Virus record (IMG/VR): IMGVR_UViG_3300042559_002699
Coordinates: 1 to 64,000 of that record
Reading direction: 5' to 3' (one strand)
From: a virus
DNA: 64,000 nucleotides
Shown in pieces: positions 24,541 through 59,892 of the stretch (its first letter is position 1; each line of letters starts with the position of its first letter). The notes under the pieces are model-generated. The model was not told where the DNA came from and did not search any database. It was given only the letters and a program-made list of their open reading frames with translations. Both the position numbers and the translations under genes were made by a program.

Positions 24541-24542
24541 TT

Positions 24543-38238: not shown

Positions 38239-38245
38239 TATTGGA

Positions 38246-38773: not shown

Positions 38774-38796
38774 GATGTATGATTGTTATTCATATA

Positions 38797-38806: not shown

Positions 38807-38813
38807 CCCAGTA

Positions 38814-39254: not shown

Positions 39255-39272
39255 GATTTATATCTTTACCTT

Positions 39273-39282
39273 AATATACGGT
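39273..39282 (-). promoter_or_regulatory. Class A promoter-like motif before the small secreted protein
   Basis: Exact minus-strand ACCGTATATT, 18 nt before the ATG; it touches the stop codon of the gene upstream. Confidence 0.5.
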
Positions 39283-39488: not shown

Positions 39489-39635
39489 AGTCTATTTATC
39501 TATCTGAGATTTGGGGTTTGGATTTACCCGAGGATAACTGAGATTAGGTGGGCCTATATAGATTCTTCTCCTGGGAATATAAGTAATTCTTTTAGATGGT
39601 TTTCGGAGAAAAAGTTTCTTTCGGAGGAAAAAAAT

Positions 39636-40328: not shown

Positions 40329-40332
40329 TTTT

Positions 40333-40866: not shown

Positions 40867-40873
40867 CGAGGTT

Positions 40874-43342: not shown

Positions 43343-44041
43343 TTATATACCATCATCTAGGAATTTATTCATTTTCGATAAATCCATGGTTAGATTAATT
43401 GGTGTCGTTGGATCAAATAAATCCATAGTTGCAACTACTTTATCGTTTGTCTGTAGAGCTAGATCGTACATAGACTTTTTATCTGTCCCCACATTATAAA
43501 TTCCAGTAGCACCAGATTCTATCAGTCTTATTATCAAATCTCCTATCTTATCAACATAGTCAAAATTTCCTACTTGATTTATGTATGCCTTTGGATAAGT
43601 AAATGGGGTTTTTTTCTGTGTAGTCCTTATGACTAGATAATTTTTAGATCTCAATAAAACGTACCCCTCTCCAAGTAATTTAGTGTATCCATACCAATTT
43701 CTGGAATGGACAGGAACGTCATTTTCTGAAGCGTTATCTTTTGAAAAGGTATAGATATAATCTGTAGAGATATGAATTATTTTTTTATTTGAAGAGTTGC
43801 AAAAATCAATTAAATTTGCAACGCCTTCGTAGTTGATTTCCCAATGCAAATTCCTATCTTCTGAATAAGTGTCGGTATTTGCAATACAATTAACAACAAC
43901 ATCATATTCTTCCAATTTAGAAGAATATGAATCTAGATTAGAAAAATCGATTCCGTCTTTTTTCCTGCTTATAAAATCCCATTGGGTTTTATCTCTTAGA
44001 TAGCTTCCCAATAGACCATCGCCTAGAATAACTACTCTCAT
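43343..44041 (-). CDS. RmlD-like NAD(P)-dependent sugar reductase
   Basis: 232 residues, short-chain reductase of the dTDP-4-dehydrorhamnose reductase type. RVVILGDGLLGSYL is the Rossmann start, VVVNCIANTDTYSEDRN replaces the usual 'viNaaAyT.vd.aE', IIHISTDYIYTFSK is the catalytic STDYVF region and YGYTKLLGEGYV carries the Y-x-x-x-K pair. Shorter than RmlD (~290), with little of the C-terminal substrate domain. It overlaps the RfbH-like gene by 4 bp, so both probably act on the same deoxysugar nucleotide. Confidence 0.82.
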   Translation of the reverse strand: MRVVILGDGLLGSYLRDKTQWDFISRKKDGIDFSNLDSYSSKLEEYDVVVNCIANTDTYSEDRNLHWEINYEGVANLIDFCNSSNKKIIHISTDYIYTFSKDNASENDVPVHSRNWYGYTKLLGEGYVLLRSKNYLVIRTTQKKTPFTYPKAYINQVGNFDYVDKIGDLIIRLIESGATGIYNVGTDKKSMYDLALQTNDKVVATMDLFDPTTPINLTMDLSKMNKFLDDGI

Positions 44042-45324
44042 TTAAAATTTTTAACAACCTCTTCAATGTAATCGAAAACTACCTCTGTATAGTGGGGAGC
44101 TGCTCCTATGAAGAAAACCTTATCAAGAACTTTATTTGCCTCTGGGTAGTTATTAAAATCATCTAGGAATTTGTAACCAGGATGAAGTAAAATATTACCA
44201 GCAAAATAATTTCTGGTTTGAATTTTATTGGCTTCTAAGTAATCAACAAGTCTGTGTTTTAGTCCTTCTTCTTCGCAAATAAACGGGGTACCGAACCAAC
44301 AAACATCTGATTTTGCATGAGTTTGAACCGGTTTTATCCCCTTAATATTGGAGATGAAAATTTCTTCTATTCGGCTCTTAGATTTTTTCCTGTTTTCTTC
44401 TATTTCGTCTATCTTCTCAAGTTGAACTTGTCCTATAGCACCTTGAAGATCTAAAGGCTTTAGATTGTATCCCATATTAGAAAAGACATATTTGTGATCC
44501 ACAATTCCGTCATAAGATTCTAACCAGTTGTCAAATCTCTTTCCACAAGTCCCACAAGAAAGTAGATTAGCAGATCCAACACAATAGCAGTCTCTGCCCC
44601 ACCATGAAATACTAACAAGAAGCTTTTTAATTTCCTCGTCATTTGTGCAGATCATTCCACCTTCTCCAGTAGAAATATGGTGTGCCGGGTAGAAAGAATT
44701 TGAGAAAGCAACATAGTATTCATTTAGGTATTTTCCATCCCACTTACTTCCTAAAGAATCACAATTGTCGCCTATAATTTTAAGATTATGTTTCTCTGCA
44801 ATTCTTAGAATTTCATCCATGTCTGGAGGATTACCCAGAACAGGAGAAACGAAAATTCCCTTTGTTTTTGGAGTGATTTTTTCCTCGATTCTGCTGACAT
44901 CAAAATTTAAGGTTTCCCATTCGATATCAACAAATACAGGTTTTAATCTATTCTGGTGCAAAACAGAAATGGTTGTTGGAAATCCAACTGGGGAAACTAT
45001 AATTTCGTCATCGTCTTCCCAGCCAAATCTAGTCTTCAAAGCAGTTATCATAACAAGATTTGCAGAACTGCCTGAATTTACCATGTGAGAATGCTGTACA
45101 TTAAATCTTTTGCTGAACTTTCTTTCAAACAAAAAGACTTTTTCCCCTGCTGTTATCCATCTTCCATTAAGCAAAGAGTCTATAGCTGCTTCTGCTTCTC
45201 TATTGTCCCAATATGGACCTGAATAATAGATGGGGGTTTTTCCGGGCTTGAACTCTTTGGAGTTGTATATGTAGGGGGAAACGTGATTTCCCACCAGACT
45301 TTTAATACTTTCTTGGTTTATCAT
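44038..45324 (-). CDS. RfbH/DdhC-like 3-dehydrase (iron-sulfur, PMP-dependent)
   Basis: 428 residues, fold type I aminotransferase superfamily. Instead of the PLP lysine it has FYPAHHISTGEGG (His215-216), the hallmark of CDP-4-keto-6-deoxyglucose 3-dehydrase (E1). Cysteines fitting the [2Fe-2S] site are present: Cys188 in DNCDSLGS, then CYC (246, 248) and CGTC (257, 260), followed by GKRFDNW. The enzyme removes the C3 hydroxyl on the way to 3,6-dideoxyhexoses. Partner reductase E3 is not seen in the window and may come from the host. Confidence 0.88.
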   Translation of the reverse strand: MINQESIKSLVGNHVSPYIYNSKEFKPGKTPIYYSGPYWDNREAEAAIDSLLNGRWITAGEKVFLFERKFSKRFNVQHSHMVNSGSSANLVMITALKTRFGWEDDDEIIVSPVGFPTTISVLHQNRLKPVFVDIEWETLNFDVSRIEEKITPKTKGIFVSPVLGNPPDMDEILRIAEKHNLKIIGDNCDSLGSKWDGKYLNEYYVAFSNSFYPAHHISTGEGGMICTNDEEIKKLLVSISWWGRDCYCVGSANLLSCGTCGKRFDNWLESYDGIVDHKYVFSNMGYNLKPLDLQGAIGQVQLEKIDEIEENRKKSKSRIEEIFISNIKGIKPVQTHAKSDVCWFGTPFICEEEGLKHRLVDYLEANKIQTRNYFAGNILLHPGYKFLDDFNNYPEANKVLDKVFFIGAAPHYTEVVFDYIEEVVKNFK

Positions 45325-45383
45325 TTTTTTGAATTTGTATAGATTATCTTAGATAAAATTTCAGGAATAATTTCAGGAAATTA

Positions 45384-46247
45384 TTATTTTTTTATCATGT
45401 GATTAAATTTAGGTAGATTTTCGGTAATATATGAAGGGTATGATGAATCTATCCACACTGTCGAAAGAGTACTTCGAAAGAAAGGATCTATATTATTATT
45501 TATATTGTTCTCTATAGATTGTAATACATTTGCATTTAGCATTTCCTGAGCGGAATAGGATGTTATCTTAGTTCTTACTTTTTCTGGACCTCCCATAAAA
45601 CTAAAATGCCATCCTCCATTTTCAATTTCTTGATTTTTCTGAGCCCTTAATTGATTAAGAGAAAATTCCTTTAATCTTTTAAAAGACCCCATAGAAGATC
45701 CTCTCCAGTTTTTTTCCTTGAGAACATTTAAATAATAATAATAAGTAGTCTGTAAAAAATCATAGAACAAATCTGGGTTATAAAAGGTCTTTAAAGATTT
45801 TAGAATTTCAGGATTTGGAATTTCGTCGCAATCTGAAAAAATTATAATATCATCGTCTTCGCAGAACTCAAATCCTCTTCTGACACATTCTTTTTGGTAA
45901 AAATCCCTCCCATAATGAATCTCGTGGTTTATATTAAAACAACTTTGATTTTTTATAAATCCACTTATCCTATTAACTTCTAGAGAATCAAAATCAGAAC
46001 CTAATAAATCTTCTCCCAGATCAGTGAAATTATTAGGGGTATCTTCTATTTTCAAATGTATGATTTTTGGTAGAAATTTTTTGAATCTTTCTTTATTTTC
46101 TTCAAAATAATAGGGTTTAGGATTTCCAGTGTGTGTTACGGAGGATTCTACTATTATAAAATAATCAACATGGGGATCCAGGGTATTTAATCTAATTTCT
46201 AGTATGTCAAGCTCGTTAAAGAAACAAAATCCGTCAAAAATTCTCAT
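45384..46247 (-). CDS. Glycosyltransferase family 17-like
   Basis: 287 residues. It opens RIFDGFCFFNELDILEIRLNTLDPHVDYFIIVESSVTHTG, broken here by the family's E-x-x-x-L-x-x-R pattern, then YFEENKERF, DDIIIFSDCDEIPNP (metal motif) and WHFSFMGG. This is the signature of GT17, known from animal beta-1,4-mannosyl-glycoprotein GlcNAc-transferase and found in some giant viruses and phages. Probably adds GlcNAc-type sugar; donor not certain. Overlaps the next fucosyltransferase-like gene by 4 bp. In-frame start ATG. Confidence 0.85.
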   Translation of the reverse strand: MRIFDGFCFFNELDILEIRLNTLDPHVDYFIIVESSVTHTGNPKPYYFEENKERFKKFLPKIIHLKIEDTPNNFTDLGEDLLGSDFDSLEVNRISGFIKNQSCFNINHEIHYGRDFYQKECVRRGFEFCEDDDIIIFSDCDEIPNPEILKSLKTFYNPDLFYDFLQTTYYYYLNVLKEKNWRGSSMGSFKRLKEFSLNQLRAQKNQEIENGGWHFSFMGGPEKVRTKITSYSAQEMLNANVLQSIENNINNNIDPFFRSTLSTVWIDSSYPSYITENLPKFNHMIKK

Positions 46248-47155
46248 ATAATATTTTTTAATTTATAGTAATCTAAAGCTTCTTTTTTACAAGTTTCGTA
46301 GTCAGATAGAGATCCTTCTCTATCAAGATATGTGAATCCTCTGGTATAAGATTCCCCAGTTGCCCAGTACCCATCACTAACATTGTGTCTTGCCCAATAT
46401 TTTGGAGCTATGATTTTTTCTGCCCTGGTGTTTAACCATCCTGCCCACCATCCAAAAGTAGAGTTGGATAAAATTACCCATTTTGATTGATTAACTGTAT
46501 AAAAATCTAATCCAATCTCTCCGTGTACAGTCGGAATGTCAAATGGCATAAACGAGGAAGCGCATCCCGGATCGTCTGTGACAATTACGAATTTCATTTG
46601 AGGATTTAGAGAAAGCATATGATTTATAGAGTCCCTCCAATATTCTCTTCTTAGAATTACATTACTAAGGCCCCTATATTCTCCACCTCTGAAATTTATA
46701 ACACAGGTATTTTCATCAAGAACAATTCCCATTTTTTCCATCTCCAAATCAAACTTATTCTTGTATTCGTTCCTGATGCTGAACCATTTTAATATCTCTT
46801 CCTTCCTTTCTATCAAATAATCTTCACATTGATAAATTCCTCCCAATGCTCCATTATCTCCTATCATTCGAGTCCCATCTGGAATCTGATAAACTCTAGG
46901 ATCTAAAAAAGTGATATTGACATCATCTATGTGTCTATATGTTGTCCATTTTTCATGAAAGTCTACAAATTCACCTTCTGGAAATTTCCCAAAATCCACA
47001 TCCATAAAATACATTTGGTTCATCCCATTGTGATAGTCATGCGAGGGAGAAGGATTTATCCCCCATTCATATCCAAGTTTTTCGGATATGGCTCTACATA
47101 CAGCATATTGCCACATGTGATTTCCTAAGTTACCTGTTAAATTTGTTGTTATCAT
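46244..47155 (-). CDS. GT11-like alpha-1,2-fucosyltransferase homolog
   Basis: 303 residues. LTGNLGNHMWQYAVCRAIS is the GT11 N-terminal motif (G-x-L-G-N-x-x-x-x-Y), VINFRGGEYRG stands in for the H-x-R-x-G-D-Y donor-binding motif, and ILSNSTFGWWAGWLN is the third motif. The change of HVRRGDY to NFRGGEY suggests an altered donor. A second, more canonical GT11 lies at 56701-57549. Start ATG overlaps a possible 22-codon ORF by a TGA/ATG junction. Confidence 0.78.
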   Translation of the reverse strand: MITTNLTGNLGNHMWQYAVCRAISEKLGYEWGINPSPSHDYHNGMNQMYFMDVDFGKFPEGEFVDFHEKWTTYRHIDDVNITFLDPRVYQIPDGTRMIGDNGALGGIYQCEDYLIERKEEILKWFSIRNEYKNKFDLEMEKMGIVLDENTCVINFRGGEYRGLSNVILRREYWRDSINHMLSLNPQMKFVIVTDDPGCASSFMPFDIPTVHGEIGLDFYTVNQSKWVILSNSTFGWWAGWLNTRAEKIIAPKYWARHNVSDGYWATGESYTRGFTYLDREGSLSDYETCKKEALDYYKLKNII

Positions 47156-47220
47156 AAGATCCTATTTTTCCTTAGTAAATTACTTGATCTTTGTCCGTTG
47201 TATATTTCTGTTACTCCCAT
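47152..47220 (-). CDS. Possible 22-residue ORF
   Basis: ATG at 47220 opens 22 codons (start GVTEIYNGQRSSN) ending in a TGA that overlaps the next ATG. The 72-bp gap it fills is otherwise empty. It may be the worn C-terminal end of a lost gene, a leader peptide coupling translation, or chance. Confidence 0.2.
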   Translation of the reverse strand: MGVTEIYNGQRSSNLLRKNRIL

Positions 47221-47227
47221 TATATTA

Positions 47228-48187
47228 TTAGATCACACCGCAAAGCTTTAAGAAATCATGAACTTTCTCTTCGTGCATCACACTGTCATAGGAATTATAA
47301 GAAATCCCCTCTTCTCTAATTATTTCATCTGTAATAAGATAGTTTTCGTGATCTTCAGTACGCAACCACTCTTCGGAAGATATCATTTCCTCGTGTAATT
47401 TTTCACCTTTTCGTATTCCTACAACTTTCAATTTAATGTCTGAATTTGGATGATATTCTGATATTAAAGCATTTGCGATATCTATTATCTTAAATGATTG
47501 TACTTTAGGTATTGCTATCTTACCGTGTGATATGGGACTGTAGTATGCCCATTCTATTAGCTTAGCTGCTGATTCCAGTGTTAATAAAAATCTTGTCATA
47601 CGTAAATCTGTGATGGGTAGTTCTGTTACTCCATCTTTTAATAGCTGCTTAAAGTATGGAATAACAGAACCTGTAGATTCCAAAACGTTTCCATATCGAA
47701 CTAAGCAAACTTTTATATCCGTTTGTTTTTTTGCAAATTCAATATACAATCTTTCAGAGATTGCTTTACACATTCCGTAGATGTTTACCGGTTTACACGC
47801 TTTATCAGATGATACATAAATCAAAGTCTCTATAGTATGCTTACTACGTCTCACAGCCTCTAACAAGTTTTGATGCCCAATTATATTCACGTTAACCGAT
47901 TCGTATGGGTTTATTTCACACACAGGAACGTGCTTCAACGCAGCTGCGTTTATGATTATATCTGGTCTATAATCTTCTATAGCGTTTAGGATACAATCTT
48001 TATCCTTAACGTCTCCGATCATAAAACTAACGTTTTCTTTGTTTACCCAATCTGAAGATATTAAATTGACTTGTTTGTGTTCGTCCCTACTCAATACTTT
48101 GATTTGATTCACGTTTTGATAGAGCCCTATTAGAGTTTTTCCAAGAGCTCCGCTTCCTCCTATTAGGAGTATTTTTTTATTTTTCAT
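47228..48187 (-). CDS. UDP-N-acetylhexosamine 4,6-dehydratase, PseB/CapD-like
   Basis: 319 residues. Rossmann start KILLIGGSGALGKTL; INAAALKHVPVCEINPYE and YVSSDKACKPVNIYGMCKA are the hallmark motifs (dehydratase AALKHVP and the SDKA.kP.n.yG..K catalytic run); RYGNVLESTGSVIP and MTRFLLTLE follow. Size matches single-domain PseB rather than membrane-bound CapD. Makes the 4-keto-6-deoxy intermediate from UDP-GlcNAc (or a relative). Next to an acyltransferase and an aminotransferase, together forming a full amino-dideoxysugar set. Confidence 0.9.
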   Translation of the reverse strand: MKNKKILLIGGSGALGKTLIGLYQNVNQIKVLSRDEHKQVNLISSDWVNKENVSFMIGDVKDKDCILNAIEDYRPDIIINAAALKHVPVCEINPYESVNVNIIGHQNLLEAVRRSKHTIETLIYVSSDKACKPVNIYGMCKAISERLYIEFAKKQTDIKVCLVRYGNVLESTGSVIPYFKQLLKDGVTELPITDLRMTRFLLTLESAAKLIEWAYYSPISHGKIAIPKVQSFKIIDIANALISEYHPNSDIKLKVVGIRKGEKLHEEMISSEEWLRTEDHENYLITDEIIREEGISYNSYDSVMHEEKVHDFLKLCGVI

Positions 48188-48199
48188 GATTTTTTATTT

Positions 48200-49069
48200 T
48201 TATATGATACGAAATCTAGCTTTATTATTATAAATAGATTTATAAAATGTTCTTTCTAAGAGACTATTTTTTTTGGTAAGTGTCTTGTCCAATACATTAA
48301 ATAAACTGACAACATATTCGTTTGGTATCGAAAATCCCCCATTGATAAAAAAAATTAACATCTCTTTATCTTCGGTAGATTTGACGGTAAAGTATCCCGA
48401 TTCGATTTGATTGTCAATTTCGTATTTTTTACCGATACAAAAAATCTCACTCCATTCAAGTAGCATTTTTAATTTATCAACAGGATAGATCTCTTTCCAA
48501 GCTTTTATTTTATCATTAATAGTGGCTGGTGTTCCTGAGTATACCTTTTCGATTTCCGAGTCCTTTGTTACTATGGATCCTATTAAAAAAACTGATTTTT
48601 TTCTTAAACAAACCCCTGGAGAAACTGTACAGCTTCCAACTAACCAAACATCGTCTTCGATGTTTGTCTTACTGTCTCCAAACAATAAGCATCCCTCTAT
48701 TAATTCACCGCTAGCAACGTGTGTCCATATTTGAGAATACATTCCAACTCTAACCCCGTTAGCTATAGAAAGTCCTCCGGATCCATCTAAAATTGTATTT
48801 TGACCGAACCAACAATTATGACCAATGTCAATCTTTTTACCAACCATAACTAGCATGTCGTTATGAAAAACATTCCAATCTCCTATACTCAGTGGATTTT
48901 CCCCTATTAAGATTCTTGTATTATCGTTGATAATGTTATTATCTCCGATTACAACGGATGGCTTGTTATTTTCGTCAAGGTACTTGATTTGTACATTTTT
49001 CCCAACGTGATTAAATTTTCCGAGCTGAATATATGGATCTATGAATGAAGTACTGTGAATGTTATTCAT
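48200..49069 (-). CDS. Hexapeptide-repeat acyltransferase
   Basis: 289 residues. Residues 1-190 are a left-handed beta-helix with many [I/V]G-x-x-x-x-I repeats (VVIGDNNIINDNTRI, DIGHNCWFGQNTILDG, GVRVGMYSQIW, NIEDDVWLVGSCTVSPG) and end GTPATI. The last ~90 residues are an extra helical domain of unknown role. Probably N- or O-acylates the sugar made by the neighbouring dehydratase and aminotransferase. Overlaps the aminotransferase gene by 8 bp. Confidence 0.82.
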   Translation of the reverse strand: MNNIHSTSFIDPYIQLGKFNHVGKNVQIKYLDENNKPSVVIGDNNIINDNTRILIGENPLSIGDWNVFHNDMLVMVGKKIDIGHNCWFGQNTILDGSGGLSIANGVRVGMYSQIWTHVASGELIEGCLLFGDSKTNIEDDVWLVGSCTVSPGVCLRKKSVFLIGSIVTKDSEIEKVYSGTPATINDKIKAWKEIYPVDKLKMLLEWSEIFCIGKKYEIDNQIESGYFTVKSTEDKEMLIFFINGGFSIPNEYVVSLFNVLDKTLTKKNSLLERTFYKSIYNNKARFRII

Positions 49070-50207
49070 TGTGTAGAATTTTAATTAGTGTATTGGTTAT
49101 GAAATTAATATCTTCTGAATTTAACCACCACCCACACGGAAGAGATAGCTGATGCTCGTAAAAATACTTTGTATGTGGTAGGTCTGTTTTACTATCTTCA
49201 AAACACTGATATCCATCACATGGAATATGTACTAACCCTGCAGCTATGCCTTGTTTGTTCATTTTTTCTAAAACATCATTACGATTAATACTTTCATCCA
49301 GTATTACAGTGTATACCCAATATGTCGGTTGTGTATTTTTATTAATTTTTAAAGGTTTTATGTGTGGATTGTCTTTAAATAAATTATCATAAATATTTGC
49401 ATTATCGATGTGAGATTGTATTATGTTATCAATATGGGGAATTTGGGACAATCCAATAGCAGCCGATACGTTATTCATATGAAACTTATATCCAGCTTCC
49501 AATATATTTACTTCCCATCTCTGACCTTTCCACTCACCCTTTTCATTTTTAGTAGCATCTCTATCAATACCAAACCATTTTAATTTTTTAGCCCTTTCAA
49601 AATCCTGTTCAGATTTGCAGATCAAAGCTCCTCCATCCCCGGTAGTTATATGCTTAATAGCTTGAAAACTAAAACAAGTATAGTCTGCATAGTGGCATAT
49701 GGACTCTCCATTATACTTTGCGCCAAAGGAATGTGCTGCATCTTGTATAAGTTTGATGCCATGTTTTTTGCAGATTGCTTGTAGCATTTCCAAATCACAC
49801 GGAATACCAGCCCAATTCACACACAGAATAGCTTTGGTTTTTTTGGTGATTAATGACTCTATCTTCAACGGGTCTATGTTTCCTGTTTTGTAATCAATAT
49901 CACACCAAACTACTTTTGCTGCTAAATTAGATATTGGGGTGACAGTAGCAACACACGTCATCGACGTCGTAATAACTTCATCATTAGGAGAAACCCCAGC
50001 CAATTTTAATGCTAACGTAAGTGCTGATGTACAGCTATTTAATAAAACTACATTTTTATGGTTTAGATAATTATTTAAAAAATCGGTAAATTGTGTTACG
50101 CACTCACCTTCATTCAAAAAACCACTAGTTAATACCGTTTTTAAATTTTCTAAAGCTCCATCTACATCGACATGAACCTTGAATATAGGATAATTTTTTA
50201 CTTCCAT
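49062..50207 (-). CDS. DegT/DnrJ/EryC1-type sugar aminotransferase
   Basis: 381 residues, full length. VVLLNSCTSALTLAL, DEVITTSMTCVATVTPI, IQDAAHSFGAKYNG (Asp binding the PLP ring) and CFSFQAIKHITTGDGGALI, where Lys in AIKH is the Schiff-base lysine, then YKFHMNNVSAAIG. It transaminates a 4-keto (or 3-keto) sugar nucleotide, fitting the 4,6-dehydratase two genes downstream. Differs from the shortened copy at 23896-24540. Confidence 0.9.
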   Translation of the reverse strand: MEVKNYPIFKVHVDVDGALENLKTVLTSGFLNEGECVTQFTDFLNNYLNHKNVVLLNSCTSALTLALKLAGVSPNDEVITTSMTCVATVTPISNLAAKVVWCDIDYKTGNIDPLKIESLITKKTKAILCVNWAGIPCDLEMLQAICKKHGIKLIQDAAHSFGAKYNGESICHYADYTCFSFQAIKHITTGDGGALICKSEQDFERAKKLKWFGIDRDATKNEKGEWKGQRWEVNILEAGYKFHMNNVSAAIGLSQIPHIDNIIQSHIDNANIYDNLFKDNPHIKPLKINKNTQPTYWVYTVILDESINRNDVLEKMNKQGIAAGLVHIPCDGYQCFEDSKTDLPHTKYFYEHQLSLPCGWWLNSEDINFITNTLIKILHNE

Positions 50208-50211
50208 ATTT

Positions 50212-50952
50212 TTATTTTTTAATATCTTTTATTTGTGACCTTTTAACACCTTCGATTCCAACTTCAACAGAATCGGTAGGTCTTGCAACGAATAGAGCTT
50301 TATATCGATCGGTAGAACTATCATTTGCTAAAATAGAGAATGTAATTAACTTTCTTTCTGATTTTACAGTTGGTACACCATGGTAGGAAGTATCGCTGTT
50401 TAAAAAAGCAACAAACCTATTTGAGATAGGTTCAATTTCATGCATACAAGTTGACATATCATCGGACCAGACTTCTAAACAACCGCCATCATTTTCTTTA
50501 TTATAGTTCTCATTCAGATACAATAAACAAGTTACCTCTTTACGCATTCCTGAATTAGGTGATTTTCTAGCATCACTATGAATCAATTGGAATGAATTTG
50601 GAAGCATTGTTCTCATACCTGACCATCTCATATGCTCATCTGGAAATAGGTTTTGTAAATTTAAAAGGTTAGATATCCTTTCTGTAAACTCTTTTGTGTG
50701 GATATAACTCATAACATTGCTAATGAATTCAGGCATTTCCCCTACTTTACTAATTCCTAGCATACCCTGTTCTAATATATTCTTTTTACCGTCTATTTCA
50801 GGGTGTCCAACATACCAAGCATCATTTTCATAAGATGGCCATGCATCTTTAATACCTTTCAAAGTATGTTCTTTTAAAAAATTATCAATAATCCATATAT
50901 CATACGGATCACTAATCTTTTGCACATTCAAATTTGTATTTATAATATCCAT
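50212..50952 (-). CDS. 2-oxoglutarate/Fe(II)-dependent oxygenase
   Basis: 246 residues. The iron triad is His125 and Asp127 (LIHSDARK) and His191 (SYHGVPT), with Arg200 in the position that binds 2-oxoglutarate. LLYLNENYNKENDGGCLEVW is the prolyl-hydroxylase-type strand region, split by D-G-G. The family hydroxylates proteins, sugars or small molecules. Within a glycan island it may hydroxylate a protein acceptor or a sugar; phages often carry such genes without known targets. Confidence 0.87.
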   Translation of the reverse strand: MDIINTNLNVQKISDPYDIWIIDNFLKEHTLKGIKDAWPSYENDAWYVGHPEIDGKKNILEQGMLGISKVGEMPEFISNVMSYIHTKEFTERISNLLNLQNLFPDEHMRWSGMRTMLPNSFQLIHSDARKSPNSGMRKEVTCLLYLNENYNKENDGGCLEVWSDDMSTCMHEIEPISNRFVAFLNSDTSYHGVPTVKSERKLITFSILANDSSTDRYKALFVARPTDSVEVGIEGVKRSQIKDIKK

Positions 50953-50955
50953 AAT

Positions 50956-51771
50956 CTACAAAGTTTGTTGATTTCTAAAAAAGTTTAAAGCATGAAAGTC
51001 TTCTACATCGTTGTGGTTGTGTTCAAAAAAACCTTCAATCGTACTCCTATACTGATCACCCTCTGGACGAGTTCTATTACATTTATTAAGCCATTCTGGT
51101 AGAGTCTTTGTATAATAGTGGTTTAGTTGTGCTGTATCGTATGATACCTTTCTTGAGCAATTCAAAATAGTTGAAGTACCTATGCCTACTACACCATCTA
51201 CATCAATCCATTCTTCATCGTGTACCATATGAACCCCATGCTTATCAAAGTTTTCGTGTAATTTGCATATTGGTCCAACATGATAGTAGGTGTGAGTATA
51301 AGGTTTACCCCATCTTTTAGTAAATCTTTCCAATACACTTGCGTTGTTCGGATCAAACTCGGTATGACCATTATCACCAAATTGTGCTAGATTGATTACA
51401 ACTTGTCTTTGGGGAACGTTGTCAAATTTAGCAATAAACTCTTTGACATCGTTCGTTTGCTTCAATACCAGAAACCCGTCGACATCAATAAAAGCAGCCC
51501 ATTCAAATTGATCGTGATATGTTTTTCCAAAATGAGTGTAAGCCATAGCAATTCTATTTGATAACCATGGGGTGTTATCCATATCACCTGGGGAATCTAT
51601 ATCCCACTCTAAAAGATGAACTCTTTCATCCAAGTCTTCACTATTAAATCTCCAATTGTTTTGATAGATGAATATACTATCAAATCCTAATTTCAAATGA
51701 TAATCGATCCACTCTTGAATATACAAGTCTTCATCTTTTGCCATTGTCACCAATGCTATTTTTTTCTTCAT
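50956..51771 (-). CDS. Glycosyltransferase family 92-like
   Basis: 271 residues. IALVTMAKDEDLYIQEWIDYHLKLGFDSIFIYQNN is the GT92/Glyco_tranf_2_4 N-terminal pattern, AFIDVDGFLVL the metal motif (DVDGF), and LNHYYTKTLPEWLNKCNR the C-terminal H-Y-x-x-K...W motif of the group. Animal members add galactose to fucose or N-glycan cores, while many bacterial members sit in capsule loci. Exact sugar unknown. Confidence 0.83.
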   Translation of the reverse strand: MKKKIALVTMAKDEDLYIQEWIDYHLKLGFDSIFIYQNNWRFNSEDLDERVHLLEWDIDSPGDMDNTPWLSNRIAMAYTHFGKTYHDQFEWAAFIDVDGFLVLKQTNDVKEFIAKFDNVPQRQVVINLAQFGDNGHTEFDPNNASVLERFTKRWGKPYTHTYYHVGPICKLHENFDKHGVHMVHDEEWIDVDGVVGIGTSTILNCSRKVSYDTAQLNHYYTKTLPEWLNKCNRTRPEGDQYRSTIEGFFEHNHNDVEDFHALNFFRNQQTL

Positions 51772-53318: not shown

Positions 53319-53973
53319 AATTAGGGTAAATCGAATTGGTACCAAAGTGTCTATGAAATGCAAATGGTTTTATTCCTTCTATTTCTGGTATCATTGTTTC
53401 GTGTGAGAAGTATTTGGCAACATCAATGTCTGCAAATTTACATCCTTCTTCTATATACCTATGCCTATAATGCGCACATATAAATCCGTCTTCATTTGTA
53501 AATCCATAGAAAGACTTCCATTCCAGATTTAATTTATTTGGAATATCTATTAATTTTTTACTTCTTAGAGAAACACTATTTCCCTGGCGAACGATTTCTC
53601 CATTTATATCACGGTACGAATAATCATCTGAAGGTAAAGCCCAAGGAGCTCCTATGTAATCATATTCTAAAAATTCATTCCTCCAAGATTCCGGATTTAC
53701 TATAAAACCATCATCGTGAATGAGAATTGCATAATCTGTTTCTATATGTTTGGATAGATTATAAATTATATTATAATTCCACTCATCAATATTTGAACTT
53801 CTTTCGGTATACTCATGTTTTATGAAAGCAGGTAAATTTTCTGGTTTTATATCGGAAGCTAATTTAACATCTCCAAATTGGATTCCCCTGCAACTATATT
53901 CCAGAGCTTTTATTGTCTGAGGGATTCTAACGCTTGTTAAAGCTATGAGAGTTACGTTTTCTAGTTTAAGCAT
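53308..53973 (-). CDS. DUF5672-like glycosyltransferase
   Basis: 221 residues. NVTLIALTSVRIPQTIKALEYS, YAILIHDDGFIVNPESWRNEFLEYDYIGAPW split around the D-D-G metal site, RQGNSVSLRSKKLIDIP, then TNEDGFICAHYR. These match DUF5672, a GT-A family common in phage and bacterial glycan clusters. Probably transfers a hexose. Confidence 0.78.
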   Translation of the reverse strand: MLKLENVTLIALTSVRIPQTIKALEYSCRGIQFGDVKLASDIKPENLPAFIKHEYTERSSNIDEWNYNIIYNLSKHIETDYAILIHDDGFIVNPESWRNEFLEYDYIGAPWALPSDDYSYRDINGEIVRQGNSVSLRSKKLIDIPNKLNLEWKSFYGFTNEDGFICAHYRHRYIEEGCKFADIDVAKYFSHETMIPEIEGIKPFAFHRHFGTNSIYPNYGR

Positions 53974-53995
53974 ATCTTATTTCGGGGGTTGTTCA

Positions 53996-54559
53996 TTAAA
54001 TCCTAGATAGAATAGTAAGTCCGTTATTGTTTGTAAACCTTTCTCCAATTCTCCATTCTCCTTCAGATAGGAATTCCTCCACTGCTCTCCAGATTCCTTC
54101 TTTTCCTGGGGTTTCTCCTTTGATTGCAAAAGTTTCTGTATCGTGAAGGCCTATGTATTTTTTAACAGAAGGCGAATGGATTCTTAATTCTTCCTTTAGT
54201 TGATCGTAATCATGAAGGGTATCGATGAATAAAAAATCACATTCAATGGGATCCATTTTTAAGGTATCTGACTCTATAAATTCAAATTCAATTTCTCTCT
54301 CTTCTGCAATTTCATAAACCAAATCTAAATTGCATCCAGACGGGTCATGATTGATATAAGTTTTAGGATGAACGATGTCCACAGAGATTAATTTTTTTGG
54401 CTGCCCTAGTAAAAAAGCCCAGGTTGAAACTATGCTTCTAACCCCCATTTCGATAACAACGTCGCATTCTTCTGTGTATCTCCTTAAAGTAGGTAAATGC
54501 TCGTTGATGTCTAATGCAGTAGCGCATTTATTAAGGTAAATTTGTTCTAAATTATTCAT
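53996..54559 (-). CDS. Class I SAM-dependent methyltransferase-like protein
   Basis: 187 residues. DVVIEMGVRSIVSTWAFL is motif I (E-x-G), KKLISVDIVHP the second strand, and CDFLFIDTLHDYDQLKEEL the fourth, followed by KKYIGLHDT. This is the cephalosporin hydroxylase/CmcI-like branch often found beside glycosyltransferases. A sugar or virion protein target is possible. The glycine-poor motif I (EMGVRS) leaves activity less certain. Confidence 0.7.
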   Translation of the reverse strand: MNNLEQIYLNKCATALDINEHLPTLRRYTEECDVVIEMGVRSIVSTWAFLLGQPKKLISVDIVHPKTYINHDPSGCNLDLVYEIAEEREIEFEFIESDTLKMDPIECDFLFIDTLHDYDQLKEELRIHSPSVKKYIGLHDTETFAIKGETPGKEGIWRAVEEFLSEGEWRIGERFTNNNGLTILSRI

Positions 54560-54575
54560 TTTATTTTATATATTA

Positions 54576-55259
54576 TTAGTATTTATGTCTCCCGTATTCT
54601 ATTTCCCATTTTTTTCTTTCCCAAGGGATGTGATTATTATACTGACCTTCCCAAGTTCTGTTAACAACATTAATTCGATTTAAATAGAAAGGATCCCCAT
54701 ATCTCATATAGAGTCTTTTGTACATATCGCAGTCCATTAGCCAGATTAAATTTGAGTCAAACCAAACATCTCCGGTATTTTTAAAACTTAAAACACTCGG
54801 AGAGCTTATTAAATTATTCCCCGTCATAATGTCTTCTGTATATCTTGGATAATAAAATCTCTCGAAGTTAATTCCATCTGTAGTGTGACAAGAAGCTGTT
54901 ACCAGCCAGTCTATATCATTAGAAGAAAAAGAATCTCTTATTTCTTTTAGAGAATTAATGTGATATAGAAAATCGTCCTGGAAAATAATTTTAATTATTT
55001 CACCAGTAGAATTAGAAATTGCATTATTAATATTACTAGAGGAATTCCCCCTATTATTTTCGTTTTTAAAATATTTAACATCCATACCCAATGATGAATA
55101 TTTCTCGCATACAGATTTAATCTCCTCGTTTTGGCTGTGGTCTGAAATTACAACTTCAAAGTCTTGATAGGTCTGTTCTTTAATTTTTTCCAAATTAAAG
55201 TCTAGAAAATCCTTTCCTCTCCCGTGCATCTCGTAACAAGGTATACAAATTGATATCAT
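54576..55259 (-). CDS. Glycosyltransferase family 2
   Basis: 227 residues. ISICIPCYEMHGRGKDFL, YQDFEVVISDHSQNEEI, YFKNENNRGNSSSNINNAI and IIKIIFQDDFLY (QDD metal motif) give a GT2 enzyme. The C-terminal part (VWFDSNLIWLMDCDMYKRLY) holds the acceptor side, with MDCD at the usual E/D-D place. One base separates it from the GT31-like gene upstream. Confidence 0.88.
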   Translation of the reverse strand: MISICIPCYEMHGRGKDFLDFNLEKIKEQTYQDFEVVISDHSQNEEIKSVCEKYSSLGMDVKYFKNENNRGNSSSNINNAISNSTGEIIKIIFQDDFLYHINSLKEIRDSFSSNDIDWLVTASCHTTDGINFERFYYPRYTEDIMTGNNLISSPSVLSFKNTGDVWFDSNLIWLMDCDMYKRLYMRYGDPFYLNRINVVNRTWEGQYNNHIPWERKKWEIEYGRHKY

Positions 55260-55260
55260 C

Positions 55261-55956
55261 TTATCTTATTAACATTGGATTGACTTGAACCTTAGATTCT
55301 GGAGGAGAAGGAGGTACCATATTAGGCCAATCGAATCCATTCTGTCCCATGTGAATAAACGTTGGATAGATTCCAAATGAATTTAAAACGTATCCGGTAG
55401 CTGCGTCTTCAAATACCATGGTGGAATATTTTTCCTTTGATTGGGAAATTTTAGAGATAGATTCTTTACTTAAGTAATATCCTCCACCACCACAATAGGT
55501 ACAAAGAGGAACTCTTACTGGGGTTCTATTCATCTCTGCGGATTCACATTTTCCCATGTGCCAGGTCGATACGTTTTCAGGGTTAGTTATCTGTGTAACT
55601 ATTCCAAAATAATCTTTATCTCCGTGAATAGAAAGGCAAGAATAAATCTTTTCGATATCCAGTTCTATATCATCGTCTGTTTTTATCATTCCTTTAATCG
55701 AGTCGGAATAATTTTCATTCACAAAAGAAACAGCTGCTTGTGTTTTTAAGGGAAGAGATTCGTAGTTATCAGGAACTTTTAGATAGACTATTTTGTTCTC
55801 TTCGTCTACTTTATATTCCGAGTCTAGATTTAAATCTCCTATAAAATAATAGAATATAATATCACCGTTGTTTGTTTCTAGGAGATGTTTTTTTTGTTCA
55901 TCCCTGTGCTTACTTCCCTTATGAGAAAGAATAGCCATAAAAAATTTATCTTTCAT
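55261..55956 (-). CDS. GT31-like (beta-1,3-galactosyltransferase/Fringe-type) glycosyltransferase
   Basis: 231 residues. KFFMAILSHKGSKHRDEQ, YESLPLKTQAAVSFV, GMIKTDDDIELD (the DDD metal motif), YCGGGGYYLS and FEDAATGYVLNSFGI follow the order seen in animal beta-3-GalT/Fringe enzymes (K-x-x, kvDDDv, gy.ls, EDv..G). Most likely moves Gal or GlcNAc in beta-1,3 linkage. No membrane anchor, as expected for a phage enzyme. Confidence 0.85.
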   Translation of the reverse strand: MKDKFFMAILSHKGSKHRDEQKKHLLETNNGDIIFYYFIGDLNLDSEYKVDEENKIVYLKVPDNYESLPLKTQAAVSFVNENYSDSIKGMIKTDDDIELDIEKIYSCLSIHGDKDYFGIVTQITNPENVSTWHMGKCESAEMNRTPVRVPLCTYCGGGGYYLSKESISKISQSKEKYSTMVFEDAATGYVLNSFGIYPTFIHMGQNGFDWPNMVPPSPPESKVQVNPMLIR

Positions 55957-56704
55957 TTAATGTTTCTAATCTGGTGTATTTTTCTTTTGATCTAATGTAT
56001 CTTGCTACCTCTTCTTGTCTATGAACTTTAGTTGCTCCGTCCCTTGTGGGATTAGCTACGTTATAAACATAAAGAATATCAGGAATAAATCTGCTTCTCT
56101 CTTTTGACATCTCCAACATTGGAAGCATAAATGCCTGATCCCCTGTTACGTCAAGCCATTCACCATCGGGTAATTTAAAGTCCTCTTCCTTGATTTTCAA
56201 AAACAATTCTCTTCTATAAGTTCTTAGATGAGAAGCCATCCATCTGTATTCCCTAAATAAATTTCCTTGTATTATATGATCTGGGTAAGCATAATAACTT
56301 CCAGAAACGTCGTTATAAGGATATTCTTCATATCTTCCATAGGTCATCCAGACTTCTCCGGAATTATAGACCTCATTTAGTTTTTTTAGAACCTGGTTGT
56401 TTTTTAAACAATCATCCCCATCGACAGAAACCACTATAGAATTTTCCTTAGAAAGAAGAGTGAGCTCTAGAATATTTCGGACCTGCGAGAATATTTTATT
56501 CTCATTTCTTATAGCTCTTAATTTTCCTGGAAATTCTTTTTGTATCCTGGAGCATATCTCAAAAGTCTTATCGGTTGAAATGTCGTCTATAACGATAACT
56601 TCAAAGTTATCATAATCCTGGTTTAAACAGCTGTATAGACATCCCTCTATCCAATTCTCGTGATTAAAGGTGTTTATCGTTATGGAAAAGAAGTTGTTGC
56701 TCAT
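55946..56704 (-). CDS. Glycosyltransferase family 2
   Basis: 252 residues from the ATG at 56704, whose ATGA overlaps the stop of the fucosyltransferase gene; an in-frame TTG at 56725 is less likely. FFSITINTFNHENWIEGCLYS, YDNFEVIVIDDISTDKTFEIC (first acidic pair) and NSIVVSVDGDDCLKN (DGDD metal motif) define GT2. GEWLDVTGDQAFMLPML is the acceptor/base region. It overlaps the GT31-like gene by 11 bp. Confidence 0.9.
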   Translation of the reverse strand: MSNNFFSITINTFNHENWIEGCLYSCLNQDYDNFEVIVIDDISTDKTFEICSRIQKEFPGKLRAIRNENKIFSQVRNILELTLLSKENSIVVSVDGDDCLKNNQVLKKLNEVYNSGEVWMTYGRYEEYPYNDVSGSYYAYPDHIIQGNLFREYRWMASHLRTYRRELFLKIKEEDFKLPDGEWLDVTGDQAFMLPMLEMSKERSRFIPDILYVYNVANPTRDGATKVHRQEEVARYIRSKEKYTRLETLNER

Positions 56705-57549
56705 ATTATTTCCCATCCCTCGCAATATATGTCACTCGTGTCTTTAGGTAAAGAAGGACCAAACCATCTGGAAGGAGCTATAACTCTCTTGTCCTTAGAT
56801 CTATTTAACCAGGCACCCCACCAGCTAAAAGAAGAGTTTGCAATAATGTGATGGTCACACATTGTCATAATTGCAAGATCCACATATGGATTGTTAGTTT
56901 CTGAAAATATAAAACTGTCTCCTTCAAATTTTTTCTTGCACCATTCGATATCGTCAGAAAAAACTAGAAACACAGAATTTTTTAGATCGAATTTTTCAAT
57001 TGCAGATTTATAATAGTCATCGGAACAAACCGGATGATGGTTTGGATATAGCGTATAATCCCCCCTTCTTACGTGAATAGAAATTACATTCTTATTTGAT
57101 GATAGAGAATGAACCTTCTCTAATAGAAAATTTCTTGCTTCTTCTTCATCTTCTTTTTTAAAAGTAAAGATTTCTAGAATTTCTTCCCTATATTTTTTAA
57201 AATATTCCTCGGTTTGAAAGTATCCAGATAAATCTGTATATGGTTCCAAAGATAGAACCTGAGGATTGAATTTAAAATCCCCCTCGTAGTAAATGTACTG
57301 AGGTTTTACCTCACTGAACGGAATTAAATATTTTGACGGGATATTGAAACAATCTAAAAGATCGCACTTAACATTCGTCTGTAATCCGGTTTTAACGTCA
57401 ATTGGTCCGCTTCCAATTTTTCTGGTGCAATTCTCAATAGGAATTCCGGCACCAAATCCTCTTTCTTTTGCTATTCCTACTGTTGAAGCAAGCTGGAACA
57501 TCTGATTTCCAAGCCTTCCCATGTAGCCGATGCTTCTAAAATAAATCAT
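56701..57549 (-). CDS. GT11 alpha-1,2-fucosyltransferase
   Basis: 282 residues with all canonical motifs: GYMGRLGNQMFQLAS at the N-terminus, ISIHVRRGDYTLYP (GDP-fucose binding), YYKSAIEKF, LVFSDDIEWCKK and ANSSFSWWGAWLN. This is a close match to FUT1/FUT2-type bacterial enzymes that put fucose alpha-1,2 on galactose. It heads a minus-strand run of glycosyltransferases, back to back with the plus-strand GT7 gene; the 77-bp divergent gap (57550-57626) should hold promoters, but no class A or B motif was seen there. Confidence 0.92.
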   Translation of the reverse strand: MIYFRSIGYMGRLGNQMFQLASTVGIAKERGFGAGIPIENCTRKIGSGPIDVKTGLQTNVKCDLLDCFNIPSKYLIPFSEVKPQYIYYEGDFKFNPQVLSLEPYTDLSGYFQTEEYFKKYREEILEIFTFKKEDEEEARNFLLEKVHSLSSNKNVISIHVRRGDYTLYPNHHPVCSDDYYKSAIEKFDLKNSVFLVFSDDIEWCKKKFEGDSFIFSETNNPYVDLAIMTMCDHHIIANSSFSWWGAWLNRSKDKRVIAPSRWFGPSLPKDTSDIYCEGWEII

Positions 57550-57626
57550 AGAATAATTTAAAATTATACCGGGGAAGAAGAATAATGTTTCGGAAACTTT
57601 AACAAAAGTATGAACTAAAATATCTG

Positions 57627-58295
57627 ATGTCTAAAAAATTATCTATCATAGTTCCATATAGGGACAGAGAAGAACATTTAAAAAAATTTGTTCCCCATAT
57701 GGAGAATTCAGAATTCTTAAGGGATTTGGATTACGAGATTGTAATTGTTGAACAGGACGATAAACCTTTCAACAGAGGAAAATTATTAAACGTCGGAGCA
57801 CTTGAATCACCTTCTGCAGATTACTATTGTTTCCATGACGTTGATATGTTACCAATAACATCGGATTATACTTATACCCCGAATCCAACCCATTTAGCAG
57901 CTGAAGCGGAGCAATTTGGATACAAACTCCCTTACCATAAGTATTTCGGAGGGGTTACCATTTTCGATAAGCATTCCTTTATCAAGGCAAATGGATATTC
58001 TAACGATTACTGGGGGTGGGGAGCAGAGGATGACGACGTTATGTTGAGATGCATTTTAAATGGGATCCCAACATCTAGGAAAAATGGAAGATATAGATCG
58101 TTAGCTCACGAAAGAAATATTGTCAAAGATTTATATGACGAGAATCTTAAAAAATATTTCTCATTTAGCTCCCCTGAAGGGCAAAAAAATGCGATGGAAA
58201 AAATAAATTCGGATGGATTAACAACTCTAAAATATGAAATCTTAGAAGAAAGGAAGATCTCAGATAAAACTAGAATCGTAAAAGTTAAAATTTAA
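57627..58295 (+). CDS. GT7-like beta-1,4-galactosyltransferase
   Basis: 222 residues with the full animal-type beta4GalT motif set: SIIVPYRDREEHLKKF, EQDDKPFNRGKLLNVG at 42-57, CFHDVDMLP at 68-76 (DVD metal motif), YFGGVTIFDKHSFIKANGYSND, then YWGWGAEDDDVMLR at 128-141 (the GWGxEDDD acceptor loop). Animal members add Gal (or GalNAc) beta-1,4 to GlcNAc. The catalytic domain stands alone, with no anchor. Product could be the acceptor for the neighbouring fucosyltransferase. Confidence 0.92.
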   Translation: MSKKLSIIVPYRDREEHLKKFVPHMENSEFLRDLDYEIVIVEQDDKPFNRGKLLNVGALESPSADYYCFHDVDMLPITSDYTYTPNPTHLAAEAEQFGYKLPYHKYFGGVTIFDKHSFIKANGYSNDYWGWGAEDDDVMLRCILNGIPTSRKNGRYRSLAHERNIVKDLYDENLKKYFSFSSPEGQKNAMEKINSDGLTTLKYEILEERKISDKTRIVKVKI

Positions 58296-58296
58296 A

Positions 58297-58306
58297 AATA
58301 TATAAG
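58297..58306 (+). promoter_or_regulatory. Class B-like promoter motif with hairpin, before the HAD gene
   Basis: Plus-strand AATATATAAG, 17 nt before the GTG start, followed at once by a small hairpin (GGGA...TCCC, 58306-58318). The layout copies that upstream of the neck gene. Confidence 0.35.
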
Positions 58307-58323
58307 GGAAATTATCCCAAAGA

Positions 58324-58881
58324 GTGATAGAAATTAAAGGAATAGATACCGGTAACAGATTAGTTATTTTTGATTTAGATGATACTATTGTCAGAACTGA
58401 TGCAAAGATAAAAATTGTAGACAGAAAAACCGGGAAAATTATCAAGTCCTTAACCCCTCAGGAATTCAACACATTCGAATCTAAACCATCTAAGCACGTT
58501 CTGGATTTTGGGGATTTTCTAAACCCTGAAATTCTAAGACAGGGAAGATTTATCCATGAGATATTTAACAAGCTCAAAAGCTACTATAAGAGAGGAATCC
58601 CTGTTGCTATTGTGACTGCTAGAAGCTCTAGCAAGCTCGTGAGGGACTTCTTTTTAGAAAATGGGATTGACATACATCCACAACTTGTAATTGCTATAAG
58701 TGATCCTCAGTATGGTTATAAAGGAACCATTGCAGATAGAAAAAAGGAAGCAATAAAAGATTTAATTGATTTAGGATTTAAGCATTTGACTTTCTTTGAT
58801 GATAGCCAAGAAAATTTAACTCTTGCTAAAGAAGCAGAGGGATATAAAGGTGCTACAATTAAACTGATTAAAGTTGATTAA
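58324..58881 (+). CDS. HAD-family phosphatase
   Basis: 185 residues from a GTG start (next ATG far inside). LVIFDLDDTIVRTD is HAD motif I (DxDxT), VAIVTARSSSKLV motif II (T in VTAR), and LTFFDDSQENL motif IV (DD). KGTIADRKKEAIKDLI supplies the motif III lysine. The pattern is close to the 3'-phosphatase half of phage polynucleotide kinases and to small phage nucleotide phosphatases; no kinase domain is attached. Its stop overlaps the convergent 73-residue gene by 4 bp. Confidence 0.85.
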   Translation: MIEIKGIDTGNRLVIFDLDDTIVRTDAKIKIVDRKTGKIIKSLTPQEFNTFESKPSKHVLDFGDFLNPEILRQGRFIHEIFNKLKSYYKRGIPVAIVTARSSSKLVRDFFLENGIDIHPQLVIAISDPQYGYKGTIADRKKEAIKDLIDLGFKHLTFFDDSQENLTLAKEAEGYKGATIKLIKVD

Positions 58882-59099
58882 AGACCAGATCTAAGGTCCT
58901 CTAGAGATCTCGGGATTGTCAATCTCAGATGCTCCAGATTTTTCTCTAGTATTTCAGGACTTACGTTTCTAGTTAAGATTTGAACAGTTTCCAATACACC
59001 AAGGGCAAATCCTAATTTTCCTTTGATGATAGCATTTTCTTTCATGAGCATTTGCTCTCTTCTAGAAAGTTCCCCCTCCTTAATTTTTTTCTTTGGCAT
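58878..59099 (-). CDS. Small helical protein, unknown
   Basis: 73 residues, basic start (PKKKIKEGELSRREQML) then an amphipathic helix; no family recognised. It is convergent with the HAD gene. Small basic helical proteins like this are common as early phage accessory factors. Confidence 0.6.
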   Translation of the reverse strand: MPKKKIKEGELSRREQMLMKENAIIKGKLGFALGVLETVQILTRNVSPEILEKNLEHLRLTIPRSLEDLRSGL

Positions 59100-59136
59100 A
59101 TAAAATATGTATCAAAGATCCAAATTTATTTAGAAT

Positions 59137-59892
59137 TTATTTAGAATTAAGGTAATCTTCCAATCTACGATATCTTTCATTATTAGGAAGACCGTGTACG
59201 TCCATAGGACTGTCGCACAATCTAGTGTACCACATGTGAATTGCTATGTCAGGAGAATCTTTCTCAATCCTTGGATTGGTTGACTTAAATCTGGAATCAA
59301 AGTAAGGGTAAAGATAATGAATTTTTATTTTGTTCTCCTTCATCAGCCAGCAGAAAAGATAAAAAGGTTCGCATTCAGATTCTATATTATCATGAGGCCA
59401 GATTTTATCGTGAGGATATATGAAATCATCCAAATATTCTTTCTTAAAATGAATTCCTAAAGAATTCTTCCAATTTTGTCCATCGTATTTGAAATCGATA
59501 TTTTTAATATCTAAATTGACATGCTGCAAATCTTCAACCCTACCAGCCAAAAAGAAAGAGTTGAAAGCTACTGGATTGTTTCCTCTGAAATGACAATATG
59601 CTTCAGAAATAGCAGAAATCCCAATATCTTCCATTTCCATTTTTTCAAGGAGTTTAATTACTTCAGATTTATTTTCGATGAAGCAATCTTCATCGATATG
59701 GATATACCATTTTTGATTTGTTTTCTTAACCTCATTTATCCAAAGAAACCAGGACTTTGGCCATCCCCCTCTTCCGTCGACGACAATGAAGGAACTTTCA
59801 GGAAAATTTGATTTTAATATACTCTGTTGATAATTTATCCATTTAGTGGATAAAGAAGGGGTAACAAAAACTATGTCTGAATCTTTGATCAT
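59137..59892 (-). CDS. Putative glycosyltransferase
   Basis: 251 residues. DIVFVTPSLSTKWINYQQSIL, SSFIVVDGRGGWPKSWFLW, KWYIHIDEDCFIENK (D-E-D metal motif near residue 68) and PHDNIESECEPFYLFCW give a GT-A pattern; the end HMWYTRLCDSPMDVHGLPNNERY is unlike other local enzymes. Family not resolved. It is the last glycosyltransferase of island B. Confidence 0.65.
   Translation of the reverse strand: MIKDSDIVFVTPSLSTKWINYQQSILKSNFPESSFIVVDGRGGWPKSWFLWINEVKKTNQKWYIHIDEDCFIENKSEVIKLLEKMEMEDIGISAISEAYCHFRGNNPVAFNSFFLAGRVEDLQHVNLDIKNIDFKYDGQNWKNSLGIHFKKEYLDDFIYPHDKIWPHDNIESECEPFYLFCWLMKENKIKIHYLYPYFDSRFKSTNPRIEKDSPDIAIHMWYTRLCDSPMDVHGLPNNERYRRLEDYLNSK

Follow-up and report, generated by a model that had tools for sequence, protein, structure and literature searches.

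A variable glycosyltransferase cassette at a fixed site in T4-like huge phages and its possible role in the glycosylation of collagen-like virion fibres

A gene island carrying about 12 glycosyltransferase (GT) genes, putative ones included, was located at positions 43343-59892 of a 64,000-nucleotide stretch of viral DNA (the window; positions 1 to 64,000 of IMG/VR virus record IMGVR_UViG_3300042559_002699). The island was a variable cassette at a fixed genomic site, bounded on one side by a ClpA-like ATPase, near which a GT7 gene was divergent to a GT11 gene (GT11b), and on the other by the UvsX side. We tentatively favor the view that this cassette of a huge T4-like phage may encode a cytosolic pathway glycosylating virion proteins, most likely collagen-like fibers with an Mtd_N domain. 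That the virus probably glycosylates its own fibers was suggested by its relatives, since their GT7-GT11b pair adjoined genes for fucose supply and for collagen-like fibers. The activities, the linkages, the attachment to fibers and the biological purpose described below are those that we infer from the genes and their surroundings.

The divergent GT7-GT11b pair was present in at least seven phage records (L006, L007 and L009-L013). In the related records G002, G003 and G005-G008, GT7 was located near the ClpA-like ATPase and divergent from GT11b, with variable GT genes next to the pair, and a HAD phosphatase-like gene was kept beside GT7 in L006-L009. The other boundary, a peptidoglycan-binding-type protein and UvsX, was also found in G002, G003, G006 and G008, and the gene order matched in L102, L103 and L105. 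The initial annotation, made from the sequence alone, had suggested searching other phages for the same set; this search recovered the pair in huge-phage relatives, with the rest of the set variable. As a separate observation, the UvsX gene of G002 (L105:16954-18862) was apparently split by two intein-like inserts that the window UvsX gene (35524-36717) did not have.

Beside its ClpA gene, the 642-kb phage LR756502 carried homologues of DegT1 (67%), the RmlD-like reductase (51% identical), GT11a (52%) and GT17 (43%), as well as a DUF5672 gene. Moreover, a GT17-GT11-DegT-DUF5672-GT2 set was also found in Synechococcus phage RN05-S, and in the unrelated phage L072 a comparable GT set directly followed the terminase, portal and putative major capsid genes. 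Since these three phages carried comparable sets, part of the island can be considered a widespread phage module, and the GT7-GT11b pair is characteristic of the present lineage of huge phages. Individual genes also had homologues elsewhere: DegT1 in L006 (82%), with the copies of L105 (G002) and RN05-S about 58% identical to each other; DUF5672 in L006 (83%), with the L105 and LR756502 copies forming a 75% pair; GT17 in seven INPHARED records, five of them from Synechococcus phages; and the GT2_4/GT92-like protein, weakly, in Prevotella Lak phages.

In the relatives, candidate glycan carriers were encoded close to GT7. Collagen-like Mtd_N genes of the relatives were located within about 10 kb of GT7 in all five cases (5/5); their Mtd_N domains scored over the cut-off and the collagen Y position was mostly Thr or Ser. 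In G003 and G005-G008 the Mtd_N genes and GT7 were on one and the same side of ClpA, and collagen-like Gly-X-Thr/Ser repeats occurred in most of these Mtd_N genes. Of the 11 Mtd_N genes in G003, G005 and G006, the three largest records, 10 were at most 20 kb from GT7, and in a nearest-gene rotation test only 1 of 10,000 random draws (1e-4) matched the observed distances, although the test was not fully independent because the phages are related. The window had one gene of this type, with Thr at 9 of 12 Y positions and collagen repeats just under the cut-off (PF01391, 5.5e-6). Glycosylated collagen-like proteins are known from other systems, namely BclA and the viral collagen of mimivirus (PMC9614988), and Thr glycosylation stabilizes collagen according to work cited in PMC3368898. 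Directly beside the window gene there was also a second sugar cluster (18722-27577, minus strand) with methyltransferases, an FkbM methyltransferase, a DegT fragment, two hexapeptide acyltransferases (one PglD-like) and a 771-amino-acid GT4-GT9 fusion.

In the proposed mechanism, soluble enzymes in the infected cell would make activated sugars through a PseB/PseC/acyltransferase route, whose product would be a 4-(acyl)amino-4,6-dideoxy-HexNAc, and through an RfbH-like deoxysugar step. Oligosaccharides would then be assembled straight on virion proteins by some twelve cytosolic glycosyltransferases, most likely at Thr or Ser of the Gly-X-Thr/Ser stretches in Mtd_N-type fibers. GT7 and GT11b might supply a constant unit in which galactose (Gal) is added and then alpha-1,2-fucosylated. 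The remaining cassette genes would be exchanged from phage to phage in the manner of an O-antigen locus, and the fiber glycans would vary as a result.

The enzyme families were assigned by Pfam bit scores against the family cut-offs, with Pfam standing in for the dbCAN/CAZy models (Table 1). The families read by eye in the initial annotation were recovered over cut-off for GT17, both GT11, GT31, GT7, both GT2, DUF5672 and DUF3431. The GT92-like call also passed its cut-off but was marginal, and GT2_4 scored higher on the same protein (38/27.5). The putative GT-A protein at the ClpA end had no Pfam or PHROG match, its homologues in two other huge-phage records were 51-56% identical, and its AlphaFold model (pLDDT 43) was too poor to use. 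The PseB-like, PseC-like and acyltransferase genes might together form a route to UDP-4-(acyl)amino-4,6-dideoxy-HexNAc. Since the sugar-nucleotide enzymes all scored under the NCBIfam equivalog cut-offs (DegT1 364 bits against 423 for RfbH; the PseB-like dehydratase 262 bits with the PseB model; DegT2 284 bits with the PseC model), the exact sugars are only what we infer.

The GT7 protein (222 amino acids) matched human and bovine beta-1,4-galactosyltransferase 1 (b4GalT1) at 3e-40, with 37.6% identity over the catalytic domain. Its AlphaFold model had a pLDDT of 69, and the best 30 Foldseek matches of this model were b4GalT1 and b4GalT7 structures only. In bovine numbering, P187, R189, R191, F226, R228, D252-V253-D254, F280, Y286, Y289, W314, E317-D319, H347 and R349 were kept; the motifs were located at D71-V72-D73, W129-G-W-G-A-E134-D-D-D137 and H161 of the phage protein. 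Thus, in the alignment check proposed by the initial annotation, the donor, catalytic and most acceptor residues were kept, while M344 was replaced by Ser (Ser158) and Q288 by Lys. The Met344-type third metal ligand was therefore not kept, and Ser was frequent at this site in phage relatives; the GlcNAc N-acetyl pocket of b4GalT1 (Arg359/Phe360/Ile363) had no clear alignment in GT7. Tyr289 favors Gal over GalNAc as the donor, and its equivalent in GT7, Y106, was consistent with a Gal donor. As an observation apart, GT7 homologues of other viral contigs (L019-L022, L024, L025 and L027-L029) had an insert of about 300 amino acids that separated the catalytic motifs from the C-terminal part, and they occurred as tandem copies; the L020 copy matched Laminin_G_3 (concanavalin A-like) over cut-off.

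In GT11b, the motifs HxRRGDY, SDDxxWC and NSSFSWWG were invariant in seven of seven aligned sequences, and a PDB sequence search with this protein gave no relevant match. GT11 enzymes are metal-independent. Accordingly, the earlier statement that each enzyme had its metal motif was too strong, given GT11 and the lost Met344-type ligand of GT7.

The reading of GT7 and GT11 as a Gal-Fuc pair was strengthened by the recurrence of the divergent pair, by the kept GT7 donor site and by the fucose-supply genes of the relatives. In five relatives the cassette ended in genes for GDP-L-fucose synthesis, with GMD at 6-10 kb from the GT7-GT11b pair. A GDP-L-fucose synthase, most similar to the human-type enzyme (1e-79), was confirmed in G003 and G006, where it preceded GMD, and had homologues in G007 and G008. 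Other enzymes varied: the G006 cassette had GT10 and GT25, and G003 had a UDP-galactopyranose mutase. No GMD was found in G000 (the window record), G001 and G002, in which PseB/PseC-type genes (G000 and G001) or others occupied its place. The G006 cassette also encoded a 631-amino-acid protein (L102:6028-7923) whose N-terminal part was a nucleotidyltransferase domain; HAD and sugar/choline-kinase-like parts were recognized in it by eye.

Neither GT7 nor GT31 had a match among 50,697 INPHARED phage records. GT7 was present in a few bacterial genomes, such as on a chromosomal Chitinophagaceae contig, and was almost absent from the sampled Bacteroidota chromosomes, its N-terminal domain model being over cut-off in one of 396 genomes (the centre genome itself). 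Among 297 sampled Bacteroidota genomes, GT17 was found in none, GT31 in none (with no control matching either) and GT11, which is common in bacteria and cyanophages, in 29. The label "animal-like" gained no support as a statement of animal origin since phage, bacterial and animal sequences were mixed on deep, weakly supported branches of the GT7 tree. A recent animal-to-phage transfer was likewise unsupported, the human b4GalT1 branch being long and weakly placed.

A more specific version of the pathway, in which the phages would make the H type 2-like chain Fuc-alpha-1,2-Gal-beta-1,4-GlcNAc and show it on collagen-like tail fibers as a diversifying coat, appeared unlikely. Members with GT10 would then be Lewis-like, and the particles would display animal-type histo-blood-group glycans. 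The H type 2 product named in the initial annotation was possible, but its linkage and acceptor gained no support. The suggestion that GT31 made the type 1 version was not supported. Its DDD and ED..G motifs were present and kept in the G002 homologue, but it had no solved relative in a PDB sequence search and only one clear counterpart among 26 related records besides near-identical G001. If such products were made, bacterial viruses would use the enzyme kit of animals for blood-group-type glycans, with a bearing on phage-host recognition and on immune recognition of phages, and soluble galactosyltransferases and fucosyltransferases could be obtained from the cassettes.

The alternative that survived best, possible though somewhat unlikely, was that the cluster remodels the host surface polysaccharide (the O-chain of lipopolysaccharide, LPS, or the capsule) during infection, for example to block competing phages. 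Clusters of cyanophages and pelagiphages have been read in this way, including those of T4-like cyanophages related to the present one (GT17-GT11-DegT, RN05-S) (PMC7824862, PMC7029224), and enzymes of the RfbH and PseB/PseC types are a usual feature of O-antigen loci. However, none of eight phage records (three with lengths of 373-434 kb) had a gene for the flippase Wzx (PF01943) or for the initiating phosphoglycosyltransferase (Bac_transf, PF02397), which matched in 13 and 9 of 14 controls, respectively. No transmembrane segments were found in the island proteins, and in the relatives the cassette adjoined fiber genes. Thus, the lack of membrane segments, of Wzx and of the initiating transferase favored direct cytosolic glycosylation of the virion over lipid-linked export.

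Several points weighed against virion glycosylation on collagen-like fibers. The phage could still use carriers and flippases of the host, and missing genes were weak evidence because all the phage records are possibly incomplete. No gene could be singled out as a protein-O-linked initiating transferase. The glycosyltransferases seemed tied to the fibers through genomic context only, collagen-like repeats are widespread in phage fibers, and the window's own collagen-like gene was about 15 kb from the island, beside the other sugar cluster. The window record also had neither GMD nor GDP-fucose synthase; GDP-Fuc would therefore come from the host or from the unsequenced part of the genome. Finally, recombinant collagen-like proteins of E. 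coli prophages were found to be unglycosylated (PMC3368898).

Virion glycosylation might instead act mainly on capsid or tail-tube proteins, as in mycobacteriophages, whose capsid and tail-tube glycans are reported in work cited in PMC12619734. The GT set of L072 does follow a putative major capsid gene; however, the structural genes flanking the cassette in huge-phage relatives encoded Mtd_N/collagen fibers rather than capsid proteins, and we consider this target improbable. Glycosylation of modified DNA bases in the T4 style was the least credible explanation: T4-like phages use base glucosylation, and G003 and G006 had a second, diverged thymidylate-synthase-like gene (L091:425-1204 and L092:220-999; possibly a base hydroxymethylase), but no thymidylate-synthase-like gene was found in the fragments G000, G001 and G002, the G003 paralogue was at 161.6 kb and its cassette at 348 kb, the GT families of the island were of glycan type, and a dozen glycosyltransferases with amino-sugar enzymes exceeded known needs (no search was aimed at the DNA-glucosyltransferase families known from T4).

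Table 1. Features of the window, with the matches that support them (bit scores as score/cut-off)
Position	Strand	Feature	Evidence
13584-18257	-	1557-amino-acid CHU_C/PKD protein	adjoins terminase and neck genes
27968..28330	-	Mtd_N with collagen-like Gly-X-Thr repeats, candidate glycan carrier	PF18454 2.4e-16, over cut-off
35524..42982	-	cassette boundary, peptidoglycan-binding 702-amino-acid protein through UvsX	PF01471; UvsX phrog_97
43343..44041	-	RmlD-like NAD-dependent sugar-nucleotide reductase	PF04321 E 3e-21
44038..45324	-	DegT1, RfbH-like pyridoxal-phosphate enzyme with CxxC motif	PF01041 3e-72
45384..46247	-	GT17 (MGAT3-type family)	PF04724 1e-28; 100.9/26 bits
46244..47155	-	GT11a, divergent GT11	PF01531 8.5e-8, 32.2/23.9 bits; phrog_2644 1e-23
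47228..48187	-	PseB/FlaA1-like UDP-GlcNAc 4,6-dehydratase	PF02719 1e-79; PDB 2gn4 1.5e-55
48200..49069	-	hexapeptide (left-handed beta-helix) sugar acyltransferase	PF00132 at cut-off; NeuD/PglB and WcaF families weak
49062..50207	-	DegT2, PseC-like UDP-4-keto-sugar aminotransferase	PF01041 5.5e-97; PDB 2fn6
50212..50952	-	2OG-Fe(II) oxygenase (prolyl-hydroxylase superfamily)	PF13640 2.8e-14
50956..51771	-	GT2_4/GT92-like glycosyltransferase	PF13704 2.5e-9; PF01697 23.4/23 bits
51772..52632	-	putative GT-A glycosyltransferase, sub-threshold GT2	PF00535 0.0011; 19.4/23.3 bits
52629..53363	-	DUF3431 putative glycosyltransferase	PF11913 3.6e-9; 37.1/25 bits
53308..53973	-	DUF5672 putative glycosyltransferase	PF18922 2e-11; 44.2/24.4 bits
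53996..54559	-	methyltransferase-like protein	Methyltransf_24 0.038, sub-threshold
54576..55259	-	GT2a	PF00535 7.7e-16; 58.9/23.3 bits
55261..55956	-	GT31 (Galactosyl_T)	PF01762 2.6e-15; 57.2/23 bits
55946..56725	-	GT2b	PF00535 4e-18; 66.3/23.3 bits
56701..57549	-	GT11b, alpha-1,2-fucosyltransferase-type	PF01531 4.6e-35; 121.7/23.9 bits
57627..58295	+	GT7, beta-1,4-galactosyltransferase-type	7C (PF02709) 82.4/23 bits; 7N (PF13733) 64.9/27 bits
58324..58881	+	HAD phosphatase-like	sub-threshold HAD models; co-directional with GT7
59137..59892	-	putative GT-A protein without known family	DxD-like 'HIDEDC'
61298..63427	-	ClpA/ClpC-like ATPase, cassette boundary	same neighbor in G002, G003, G005-G008, LR756502

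The parent record of the window was 89,451 bases long. A near-identical record from another metagenome (G001, 89,516 bases) was offset from it by about 21 kb, and both were therefore probably pieces of one larger genome. The gene content was that of a T4-like myovirus: a tail sheath, a neck, a T4-type terminase, a gp15-like tail protein, UvsX, a DnaB-like helicase and an SbcC-like protein. The same tail sheath family was common to G002, G003 and G005-G008, in records of up to 434 kb, and the window phage belongs to this lineage of T4-like huge phages. Its host was probably a member of Bacteroidota, as suggested by the CHU_C type IX secretion C-terminal domain, found with a PKD domain in the 1557-amino-acid protein, and by the named phages closest by sheath, whose hosts are Flavobacterium and Prevotella. 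The Bacteroidota promoter motif (TTTG-N-TANNTTTG) occurred 4 times against 3.7 expected, a count that did not support this host reading.

Two further observations concerned other parts of the phage. A leader of the type MKNLALYESF..E, resembling the T4 capsid-targeting sequence, was present at the N-terminus of unrelated proteins (59928-60227, 60224-61090 and 40874-42982, and at L003:1608, 2718 and 5020); we make no claim for it, as the window had 2 matches to a simple pattern where 1.35 were expected. A Band_7/SPFH protein and a nicotinate phosphoribosyltransferase were neighbors in the right part of the phage record (L004:3794-7321).

The kind of cluster described here was already known since T4-like cyanophages carry related GT17-GT11-DegT clusters. 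Like those so-called LPS clusters (P-SSM2 type, RN05-S and RB11-B), the island was a variable region of a T4-like phage with clustered GT and sugar-nucleotide genes, and it shared GT17, GT11, RfbH-like DegT, DUF5672-type and GT2 genes with RN05-S. It differed from them in the GT7 and GT31 genes, in the ClpA-UvsX site, in its probable Bacteroidota host and in the collagen-like fiber genes adjoining the cassettes of its relatives. The presence of GT7 and GT31, the fixed position of the cassette on the ClpA side and its link to collagen-like fibers appear to be new: our literature searches found no report of such a cassette and no paper on Lewis-type glycans from phage-encoded enzymes. Phage glycan clusters are usually dismissed as host LPS genes, and this lineage offers a testable alternative in a cassette that keeps its site, exchanges its content quickly, borders collagen-like fiber genes and is built around the GT7-GT11b pair. 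In comparison to mycobacteriophages, whose GTs are also believed to modify proteins of the virion (cited in PMC12619734), the enzyme set was much larger, and the families and hosts were different. The phage GT7 resembled vertebrate b4GalT1 in catalytic-domain identity, in the equivalents of DVD, Tyr289, Trp314, EDDD and His347, and in the modelled fold, but was a soluble protein without a membrane anchor and with Ser at the Met344 position. Finally, the carriers proposed here would be collagen-like surface proteins, as in mimivirus fibrils and Bacillus BclA. With BclA and its anthrose, the system would share Gly-X-Thr repeats and 4-amino-4,6-dideoxysugars (PMC9614988), whereas the enzyme families were different from those of both systems, and L230 of mimivirus acts on hydroxylysine.

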